DNA of 64,000 nt. Origin: a virus. Both the position numbers and the translations under genes were made by a program. How positions within the stretch are numbered: the first letter of the stretch is position 1; each line of letters starts with the position of its first letter. Of the stretch, positions 9,065-17,200 are shown in pieces. Under the pieces are notes generated by a model. It was not told the DNA's origin, ran no database searches, and saw nothing but the letters and a program-made list of their open reading frames with translations. The stretch lies in IMG/VR virus record IMGVR_UViG_3300009124_000005, positions 1 to 64,000 of that record; one strand, written 5' to 3'.

Positions 9065-9273
9065 TTGATGACTGGCGATACAGTGACGAACGTATGGAGA
9101 TGAGACAAAAAGTTTATGGTCTCCTCCTGACAAAATTTGGTTCTGCCCTTGACGAAAATGGAGAACCTATGTATACTATGGACAGCATTACACAATGCTC
9201 TCACGACTGGGTATCACAAGGCAATGTAAGGACAGATGGCATAGTGGCATACTTTAAAGCATACTATGCTTGA
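9061..9273 (+). CDS. Small protein (70 aa), unknown
   Basis: MIDDWRYSDERMEMRQKVY...; helical. Start overlaps the previous stop (ATGA); a longer frame from 9040 is less likely. Its TGA stop is embedded in the -35 box of the tmRNA promoter. Confidence 0.75.
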   Translation: MIDDWRYSDERMEMRQKVYGLLLTKFGSALDENGEPMYTMDSITQCSHDWVSQGNVRTDGIVAYFKAYYA

Positions 9274-9298
9274 CAACACCTAATCACTGTGCTAATAT
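9270..9298 (+). promoter_or_regulatory. Strong sigma-70-like promoter of the tmRNA gene
   Basis: Perfect TTGACA at 9270-9275, 17-bp spacer, TATAAT-like TAATAT at 9293-9298. Predicted start near 9305, just before the acceptor piece of the tmRNA. Confidence 0.8.
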
Positions 9299-9304
9299 AT
9301 ACAT

Positions 9305-9563
9305 TGTTCAAGAGGTTGCAAAGTCTGTTGTTCTGGACAGGGGTTCGATTCCCCTCACTTCCATTCTTGGGGGTGCCATGGTTTCGACAGGGCAAAAAGG
9401 TTGTAATTGTTGACGGAACAAAACCATAGATGCAAACACATCTGACTCCGCTGCGAATAACATCGTAGCATTCTCCCGCAGCACCGTTGCTGCCTGAATG
9501 GGAGATGGGGGATAAGTTATCCTTCTAATCCAATAACTCTTGGGGGTGCAATGCCCCTTCTTC
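9305..9563 (+). ncRNA. ssrA: Two-piece (circularly permuted) tmRNA
   Basis: The 3' tRNA-like piece comes first: T-arm stem AGGGG/CCCCT (9339-9343/9351-9355) with loop TTCGATT, then acceptor strand CACTTCC (9356-9362) and A. After a 5-nt spacer the 5' piece starts GGGGGTGCCATGGTTTCGAC (9369 on), the tmRNA signature. GGGGGTG pairs with CACTTCC, and CAGGGCAA (9388-9395) pairs with TTGTTCTG (9328-9335) as helix P2. The tag frame runs GCG at 9453 to TGA at 9495-9497 and encodes ANNIVAFSRSTVAA, close in form to picocyanobacterial tags. A GGGG...CCCC hairpin at 9542-9557 followed by TTCTT closes the gene. CCA is not encoded. Ends are approximate. Confidence 0.88.
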
Positions 9564-9565
9564 AT

Positions 9566-9638
9566 GGGCAAGTAGCATAATGGATAATGCCCCGCTCTTC
9601 TAAAGCGTAGACTGTAGGTTCGAGTCCTACCTTGCCTG
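9566..9638 (+). tRNA. tRNA-Arg (UCU)
   Basis: Acceptor GGGCAAG/CTTGCCT, T loop TTCGAGT, anticodon loop CTTCTAA with TCT. Reads AGA codons, which are common in AT-rich phage genes. Confidence 0.9.
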
Positions 9639-9642
9639 TTTG

Positions 9643-12293: not shown

Positions 12294-13046
12294 ATGTTTG
12301 ATAAACCAATTACAATTTATTATCATCAGTATGATAACGATTGTACTAGAAAAGAATCTGAATTCATGTATGAGTCTTGTCTCTCTGTAGACGGTATTGG
12401 ATATGAACCAGAGTCTTTGATATCCATGTCCGATGGTGAAGAGATTTATTCTGCGTGTCCTATTTGGAGACATAGAGAAGAAAGAACTTTTGCTATTCGC
12501 TCTCCTATCGATTTTACAGTACACATCAACAAAGCAAGAAAAGGAATTAGTGTTCCTAACTTCACGCAAGATCAGTTTCAGAACTATGTTTGTGGAAATT
12601 CTGATCCTAGATGGTGTACTGATAAAAGAATTAGTATTCAACTAGCGATTCCAAAGTTTATCTTTTGGACAGATGAAAAAAACATTTGGATAGAGCAAAA
12701 AAATCATTGGAGAACATCAGTAAAAAATAACTTTACTGCTGTTGGTGGGTGGTATAATACCTCCAACTGGACTAGAACTATCAATCCTTGTCTTGATGTT
12801 GTAGATCATAGCAAAGATATTGTTGTTAAGAGAGGCGACATTTTATATGAGGTTGCCTTTCATGCTCCTAAAAAATCTAGGAAAATCTCTTTAGTTAAAC
12901 AAACTCCTCCAAAACAAATTCAAAATAGATTTGTCCGAGGATTTAATATCAAAAGATTTTTACCTAAAAAAACTATAGAATTTGCATTGGGAGATACTTC
13001 TTCTAAATGTCCATTCAGGTTTGGTTCCCCGCAGGATAAGGGTTAA
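12294..13046 (+). CDS. Conserved phage protein (250 aa), unknown
   Basis: Soluble protein rich in aromatic residues (IYYHQYDND, WRTSVKNNFTAVGGWYNTSNW). No signal peptide, no recognised motif; basic C-terminal 50 residues. I do not recognise a family. Its last codons overlap a GC-rich structured segment. Confidence 0.7.
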   Translation: MFDKPITIYYHQYDNDCTRKESEFMYESCLSVDGIGYEPESLISMSDGEEIYSACPIWRHREERTFAIRSPIDFTVHINKARKGISVPNFTQDQFQNYVCGNSDPRWCTDKRISIQLAIPKFIFWTDEKNIWIEQKNHWRTSVKNNFTAVGGWYNTSNWTRTINPCLDVVDHSKDIVVKRGDILYEVAFHAPKKSRKISLVKQTPPKQIQNRFVRGFNIKRFLPKKTIEFALGDTSSKCPFRFGSPQDKG

Positions 13047-13142
13047 GCCTGCTGGTGCGGGTGAAGATATCGCCGCCTGGTTTCTTGTTTCCAGTTAAAG
13101 AACAAGTGGCGTGCATGTGCTCTGGGGTGTGACAACCCCAAC
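13026..13142 (+). other. GC-rich, highly structured segment (possible ncRNA)
   Basis: Several nested inverted repeats: CCCGCA/TGCGGG enclosing CAGG/CCTG, GCGG/CCGC, CTTGTT/AACAAG, CGCC/GGCG, and GGGGT/ACCCC. No open frame covers it. It lies between the 250-aa gene and tRNA-Gly. It could be a structured RNA, an intron or tRNA remnant, or a processing signal; no known family was recognised. Confidence 0.4.
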
Positions 13143-15957: not shown

Positions 15958-16123
15958 AAATACATCGGTTAGTTAAGGAATCAACATATTTCTTAACGGT
16001 TCGTAACACCCCAAACCGAGACCTATAGGGTGTATAAATCACGTCTCTCATATCCCCGGCTGAGGGTGCTGGGGAAATAGTAACTCCACCATTCCCTGAT
16101 GGTCTTACTTTTCGTACAAAACA
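15958..16123 (+). promoter_or_regulatory. psbA leader with hairpins and a late-like box
   Basis: 166-nt untranslated leader. GTTAAG/CTTAAC and CCCCGGC/GCTGGGG can form stems; TATAAATC at 16033-16040 resembles a late box 84 nt before the ATG. No open frame of note. Confidence 0.5.
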
Positions 16124-17200
16124 ATGGCAACAACTCTTTCAAGGCAACAAACATCCCCATGGCAGAATTTCTGTGAGTGGGTAACATCAACTAACAACCG
16201 TTTGTATGTTGGTTGGTTCGGTGTACTGATGATCCCAACACTGCTTGCAGCAACTGTCTGCTTCATTGTTGCATTCATCGCAGCACCTCCCGTGGACATT
16301 GACGGAATCCGTGAACCCGTTGCTGGTTCACTCATGTATGGTAACAACATCATCTCTGGTGCAGTTGTTCCTTCTTCAAACGCAATCGGTCTTCACTTCT
16401 ACCCCATCTGGGAAGCTGCCTCACTCGATGAGTGGCTCTACAATGGTGGTCCTTTCCAACTGGTTGTTTTCCACTTCCTGATCGGCATCTACGCCTATAT
16501 GGGACGTGAGTGGGAACTCTCTTACCGCTTGGGCATGCGCCCCTGGATCTGTGTTGCCTACTCGGCACCAGTCGCTGCTGCGAGTGCAGTATTCCTCGTC
16601 TATCCTTTCGGTCAAGGTTCTTTCTCTGATGCGATGCCCTTGGGTATCAGTGGTACATTCAACTACATGTTGGTCTTCCAGGCTGAGCACAACATCCTGA
16701 TGCACCCCTTCCACATGCTGGGAGTCGCAGGTGTCTTCGGTGGTTCACTGTTCTCCGCAATGCATGGTTCACTGGTTACATCTTCACTCGTCCGTGAGAC
16801 GACTGAAACAGAGTCACAGAACTATGGTTATAAGTTCGGACAAGAGGAAGAGACGTACAACATCGTCGCTGCACACGGCTACTTCGGTCGTTTGATCTTC
16901 CAATACGCTTCATTCAACAACTCACGTTCATTGCACTTCTTCCTTGCTGCATGGCCTGTTGTTGGCATCTGGTTCACCGCACTTGGTGTCTCCACGATGG
17001 CGTTCAACCTCAACGGTTTCAACTTCAACCAGTCCATCCTTGATGGTCAGGGTCGTGTGCTCAACACCTGGGCAGACGTATTGAACCGCGCAGGTCTCGG
17101 GATGGAGGTAATGCACGAGCGCAACGCACACAATTTCCCACTGGATCTTGCTGCTGCTGAATCTACTCCTGTTGCACTTATCGCACCTTCTGTCGGTTGA
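16124..17200 (+). CDS. psbA: Photosystem II D1 protein
   Basis: 358 residues, full length. Starts [20 protein letters not shown], with the five helices of D1, WIGRL-type helices replaced by YLGWFG-like [15 protein letters not shown], and the C-terminal [20 protein letters not shown] with manganese ligands and the processed tail ending APSVG. Uninterrupted, no intron. Replaces damaged host D1 during infection so that photosynthesis continues. Own promoter and terminator; psbD lies downstream. Confidence 0.98.

Follow-up and report, generated by a model that had tools for sequence, protein, structure and literature searches.

In Prochlorococcus and marine Synechococcus the tmRNA (Rfam family RF01851) is permuted and carries a 16-aa tag, whose first codon, GCG or GCU, stands at the foot of a 6-bp hairpin; in Prochlorococcus the molecule is seen as two separate pieces on Northern blots (PMC1242208). 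Phage two-piece tmRNAs are a kind already known, since one published survey counts 53 of them among 133 distinct phage tmRNA structures, with 50 marine or aquatic, and includes both cyanobacterial and phage copies in its tree (PMC9004378). The same survey describes the OM43 phage Melnitz, a marine T4-like phage with a permuted ssrA of alphaproteobacterial type and a predicted glutamine riboswitch. A permuted tmRNA from a nominally archaeal MAG holds a tRNA-Ala in its intervening sequence, called a unique feature in the 2025 tmRNA database paper (PMC11915505). In E. coli tmRNA the frame is set by A86, a nearly invariant base that lies four nucleotides ahead of the resume codon; pyrimidines at this position abolish activity, and a more stable helix at the resume region is thought to block function (PMC2481249).

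We analyzed a 64,000-nt stretch (the window), positions 1 to 64,000 of the IMG/VR virus record IMGVR_UViG_3300009124_000005, which comprises 91,698 bases. The record is similar to S-RIM44, S-CAM1, S-CAM3 and Syn1, and the matched stretches include ribonucleotide reductase, psbA/psbD and transaldolase, indicating a T4-like cyanophage. A complete permuted tmRNA gene lies within positions 9270–9588, and no tRNA or tmRNA gene was found in the remaining 27.7 kb of the record. Positions 9287–9557 match RF01851 (cyano_tmRNA) over the complete model, 1–288, at 126.0 bits (E = 8.9e-34). This score is far above the gathering score of 70 bits and the whole model is covered, thus the match is not due to chance. 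A second family, RF04321 (tmRNA_permuted), scores 90.9 bits (E = 3.4e-16), and ARAGORN calls a permuted tmRNA (tmRNA*) at 9274–9588 with the tag ANTSDSAANNIVAFSRSTVAA. The preliminary description of this DNA had proposed a phage-encoded, permuted tmRNA of the picocyanobacterial type and had suggested the covariance model and the ARAGORN permuted mode as checks; both match, and the gene is intact by the covariance model.

The gene, like all features described here, is on the plus strand, and its 3′ tRNA-like half precedes the 5′ half, with the acceptor and P2 helices pairing across the two. The 3′ piece of the precursor spans approximately 9305 to 9363 in the Rfam alignment and ends at the discriminator A9363, after which CCA is not encoded. 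It includes the first strand of P2 (9328–9335), the T arm (9339–9355; a 5-bp stem of 9339–9343 with 9351–9355 and the loop TTCGATT) and the 3′ strand of the acceptor stem (9356–9362). A 5-nt spacer (9364–9368), expected to be removed, separates it from the 5′ half (9369–9497 by ARAGORN and Rfam), which contains the other acceptor strand (9369–9375), the tmRNA signature ATGGTTTCGAC, the second strand of P2 (9388–9395), the resume region and the tag frame. The 7-bp acceptor includes G.U pairs at 3:70 (9371.9360) and at 4:69, and P2 has 8 bp. The T-stem, acceptor and P2 pairings noticed earlier are all present at their proposed positions and lengths. The Rfam model ends with a G/C hairpin (9542–9557) that closes the 5′ half at its 3′ end. 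No terminator was called there in a promoter and terminator scan, and the next gene is a tRNA-Arg(TCT) (9565–9639, by ARAGORN and Rfam), whose 5′ processing may also free the tmRNA 3′ end.

We compared the gene with relatives obtained by pattern scans of IMG/VR and phage isolates, which gave at least 118 extended-tag loci (window included), at least 32 short-tag loci of cyanobacterial type and at least 26 loci of other types, and with at least 120 host loci from a genome collection. Across 42 diverse phage copies, 94.3% of the cells in the four helices are paired and 11 pairs have changed on both sides; when the partners were slid by 1–3 columns as a control, 43–56% were paired with 1–5 two-sided pairs. 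Two-sided changes occur at five of the eight P2 pairs and at two acceptor pairs, and both the acceptor and the T-stem are 100% paired in these relatives. The G3.U70 pair, the alanine signal, and the discriminator A are each invariant (42/42). This covariation, together with the invariant G3.U70 and discriminator, shows that the RNA is maintained and is not a relic.

The window copy shares with the host tmRNA the gene order, the G3.U70 acceptor, T arm, P2 and signature, as well as the ANNIV-FSR tag core, the VAA end and the 3′ hairpins. An open tag frame, an Ala resume codon (GCA 9432) and an A at −4 (A9428) are also present. Two features typical of hosts, and not required by RF01851, are absent: the 16-aa tag and the hairpin CCUGCUCGG..GAGC, which hosts carry between P2 and the tag. 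Copies without this hairpin are here termed type B. We regard both absences as variation within the family, because the full-length match to the model is retained and other type B phages match it as well.

Excision of the spacer is very likely, judging from the arrangement in related phages. In at least 23 related loci, the window not among them, an entire tRNA gene occupies the gap that separates the tmRNA halves, namely tRNA-Tyr(GTA) in 15 of the loci listed and tRNA-Asn(GTT) in 8. A nested tRNA, itself cut at both ends, would separate the halves, which argues for two-piece maturation. The archaeal-MAG tmRNA shares this intact tRNA gene inside the spacer, although there it is a tRNA-Ala (PMC11915505). 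The nested state requires about 10 changes on the tree, and appears to have been gained or lost repeatedly, or exchanged. In one further relative (L304, 5774–6336, minus strand) the spacer consists of roughly 240 nt of repeated inverted TTAGTATTC.../...TAATACTC units and holds no tRNA.

A promoter of sigma-70 type, TTGACA-N17-TAATAT with an extended −10 (TGC before the −10), lies at 9270–9298, in agreement with the earlier claim that the gene has a consensus promoter of its own. The score of 10/12 consensus matches is weak taken alone, but conservation amid differing upstream DNA adds support: the −35, the extended −10 and the start region are kept in eight relatives, and others, whose upstream flanks differ. 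This suggests that promoter and tmRNA move together. Many other relatives have the tmRNA directly 3′ of tRNA-Thr or another tRNA gene, and these copies are probably read from the tRNA array. The window contains no glutamine riboswitch at the Rfam gathering threshold, thus the gene is not of the riboswitch-controlled Melnitz type (PMC9004378).

We consider it highly likely that the cyanophage has in this gene a functional ssrA, permuted as in the picocyanobacteria, which resumes translation at GCA 9432 and serves ribosome rescue via the host machinery. From the gene, its fold and conservation, the tag frame and the conserved promoter, we infer expression, processing, charging, tagging, proteolysis and benefit along the following lines. 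A precursor would be transcribed from the host-like promoter, host tRNA-processing enzymes would cut out the 5-nt spacer, and the acceptor and P2 helices would hold the two RNAs together. After the addition of CCA, host AlaRS would charge the molecule through G3.U70, and host SmpB would carry it into stalled ribosomes, where translation would resume at GCA 9432 and append the 21-aa tag, whose VAA end would direct the product to the host Clp proteases. The phage would benefit in that ribosomes stay available in the infected cell, where mRNA decay or damage yields non-stop messages, with the tag under its own control. No SmpB was found (E ≤ 1) in 14 phage records, comprising the record of the window (a 91.7-kb fragment), six named phages and seven long IMG/VR records; it is absent even from S-CAM1 and S-CAM3, whose records run to about 198 kb. 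Host SmpB is thus presumably used, and the phage tmRNA would be wholly host-dependent. With smpB in 0/14 records, a whole phage-encoded tmRNA–SmpB system was rejected.

Instead of ordinary rescue, the phage tmRNA might be a decoy that competes with host tmRNA for SmpB or AlaRS, or it might tag proteins so that they escape host proteolysis. The tmRNA of phage DS6A has no tag, and such a molecule inhibits host tmRNA (PMC4131195, PMC11915505). The tag ends of many relatives would also fit, as the extended tags among the matches listed end in VAA (22), ATA (21), VTA (10), ATV (8), VAV (5) or others (6). However, in the window the tRNA-like domain is intact, the frame is complete and VAA is retained, and the lineage as a whole has conserved both the frame and an end of small residues, so we consider this alternative unlikely.

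Ribosome rescue by a tag beginning at GCA 9432 departs from the preliminary description, which had read a 14-aa tag, ANNIVAFSRSTVAA, from GCG 9453. The evidence places the start 21 nt (7 codons) upstream, so that the frame runs from GCA to TGA at 9432–9497. Among the matches listed, which are related sequences and hence not independent events, an A is found at −4 of the upstream start in 72/72 unique extended-tag phage copies and four bases before the aligned GCG 9453 position in only 1/72, while the resume codons of 68/68 hosts and 22/22 short-tag phages have the −4 A. A tag-core pattern was used in one scan and could bias these counts, which were therefore repeated on loci found without the tag, giving 35/35 at the upstream start and 1/35 at the GCG position. 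In 67/67 distinct coding sequences among the matches listed, the N-terminal extension comprises exactly 7 codons, the first of which is always Ala (GCN). In the same set, variation in the core is nearly all at third positions (entropy of 0.04, 0.01 and 0.64 by codon position), and differences in C-terminal length preserve the frame. Together, these observations predict a 21-aa tag for this phage. The ARAGORN start alone is not proof, because for about 9 of 115 hosts the program begins the tag 5′ of the probable Ala codon (VTANNIV, AKPVTANNIV); the assignment rests on the −4 A, the stems and the codon pattern.

The upstream 21 nt could be an untranslated structural insert in the same tmRNA, with resumption at GCG 9453. 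This codon aligns with the host start codon, and the extra 21 nt form a covarying hairpin, AGAUG-CAAACA-CAUCU (9428–9443, −4.2 kcal/mol), whose first base is the −4 adenosine, the equivalent of E. coli A86. A hairpin with a 4–5 bp stem encloses the phage resume codon in 72/72 unique extended copies among the matches listed, again related sequences, as AGAUG/CAUCU (45), the flipped AUCUG/CAGAU (16), AGAUG/CAUCG (9) or AGACG/CGUC (2); among the host loci listed, none reaches even 3 pairs at this position. Yet pairing does not explain the conservation of the −4 A, since 11 sequences keep it without a pairing partner, and the upstream extension invariably opens with GCN, though the second base of that codon is not needed by the hairpin. 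Furthermore, GCG 9453–9455 sits mid-stem in a second, core hairpin (GCUGCGA/UCGUAGC, 9450–9469, 7 bp), which has the general form GC(U/A)GCGA paired with UCGU(A/U)GC. The silent third bases of Ala codon 7 and of the Val codon covary in 39/40 distinct, though related, sequences among the matches listed, indicating that the old start codon is buried. With the −4 rule failing and the codon inside the core stem, the start at GCG 9453 was rejected, and resumption there is very unlikely.

For the preferred start at GCA 9432, the resume region resembles that of E. coli, sharing UA at −5/−4 and a small hairpin (GUCG-CAAA-CGAC in E. coli) that closes on the resume-codon G. The two differ in that A86 is unpaired, whereas the −4 A of most phage copies would pair with U. 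By this comparison, the predicted hairpin has to open, or else serve as a gate, in most phages. In hosts the hairpin pairs in another register (GCGAAC/GUUCGU or GCUAAC/GUUAGU), and its stem base holds the start codon. Relative to them, the phage lineage would have shifted the resume codon 7 codons upstream into a new hairpin, with the core hairpin re-registered to 7 bp and the old start buried in its stem, and STVAA replaces QAAPVAA at the end of the tag.

In the host loci, the choice between ANNIVRFSR and ANKIVSFSR follows a compensatory change in the hairpin that starts at the resume codon, and this Arg/Ser difference tracks the pairing in 38/39 of the related host loci listed. The Rfam consensus has no pairs at this hairpin, which may be one already described in structural work on two-piece tmRNA.

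In the window, the extension encodes ANTSDSA ahead of ANNIV. Some relatives read ANNIDTA-ANNIVAF, and the first 13 nt of their extension and of their core agree at up to 12 positions, while a null drawn from the other part of the tag gave at most 10 identities in 200,000 draws. A 21-nt duplication of the tag start, in frame, would account for this. On the tree the extended form does not group as a single clade (4–5 changes), and it occurs on two scaffolds, type A (at least 89 loci) and type B (at least 29, including the window), thus exchange between phages, or loss, of the extended form is likely.

Phage tags appear to have diversified while host tags stayed nearly frozen. Extended phage tags among the matches listed come from at least 118 loci, at least 48 being distinct, and have 21–32 aa; ARAGORN gives 18 distinct tags among the host loci listed, of 16 aa except for miscalled starts and with VAA in 76/77, a comparison between sets of unmatched divergence. 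The contrast does not stem from resequencing of one strain, because the host loci represent one genome per species. The core AANNIVAFSR is conserved in phages and the length and C-terminus vary. Tentatively, and with more doubt than confidence, we suggest that cyanophages rebuilt trans-translation by duplicating the start in frame and hiding the old one, with long, fast-changing tags that would alter the choice of protease or adaptor as the host tag stays frozen. A second group of phage loci has short tags of 14–19 aa, which often end in VAV or ALV, not VAA; the reservoir isolate S-CRM01 is a member.

On the tmRNA tree, phage and host sequences fall on opposite sides of one branch (support 97/100, found in 98% of bootstrap trees), and as the tree is unrooted it shows separation and not direction. 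Among the matches listed, the nearest kin of the window tmRNA are all phage copies. The earlier suggestion that the gene is probably host-derived therefore stands only in a deep sense; recent capture from a host is unlikely, and was rejected on the separation in the tree. That the gene is a functionless, drifting fragment of host ssrA, recently captured by accident, is scarcely credible, for although pieces of host tRNA and ssrA are indeed acquired by phages (PMC9004378) and the tags are diverse, the covariance model is complete, the helices and core stem show compensatory changes, the 97/100 branch divides hosts from phages, the promoter is retained where flanks differ and the frame is kept in at least 118 loci.

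S-CAM1 and S-CAM3 carry an unannotated homologue at the same place, before tRNA-Arg/tRNA-Val, with 87–93% identity, and the tag of S-CAM1 is identical to that of the window. In S-RIM44 the interval from the equivalent gene to tRNA-Arg contains no annotated tmRNA and is too short to hold one. More distant copies are located elsewhere in S-SSM7, S-CRM01, Sf-FS3 and AG-345-P14. In S-CAM3 (KU686197.1, 182658–182798) and similar records, an annotated "hypothetical protein" overlaps the tmRNA and is likely a spurious gene call. The analysis thus corrects the annotation of the inspected records, which miss the tmRNA or overlap it with "hypothetical proteins".

The features that look new are the shifted resume codon and the two hairpins that go with it, the length and variety of the tags, and the nested tRNAs. 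The available part of PMC9004378 contains nothing on tag extension or diversification, and open-access main text yielded no account of a moved start, varied tags or nested phage tRNAs; the tag strings are absent from it too, a weak indication given that papers often put tags in tables or supplements. Dozens of phage variants set against near-invariant hosts provide a natural experiment on resume-codon choice and tag requirements. The culturable S-CAM1, S-CAM3 and S-SSM7 allow a test of whether viruses change the fate of stalled-ribosome proteins. If the upstream start is true, tagged products would contain the peptide ANTSDSAANNIV.

Two other RNA elements were observed in the window. A PhotoRC-II RNA motif (15994–16088) lies just 5′ of an ORF (16124–17200) that is probably psbA, and a wcaG RNA motif (13023–13120) is found immediately ahead of a tRNA-Gly.
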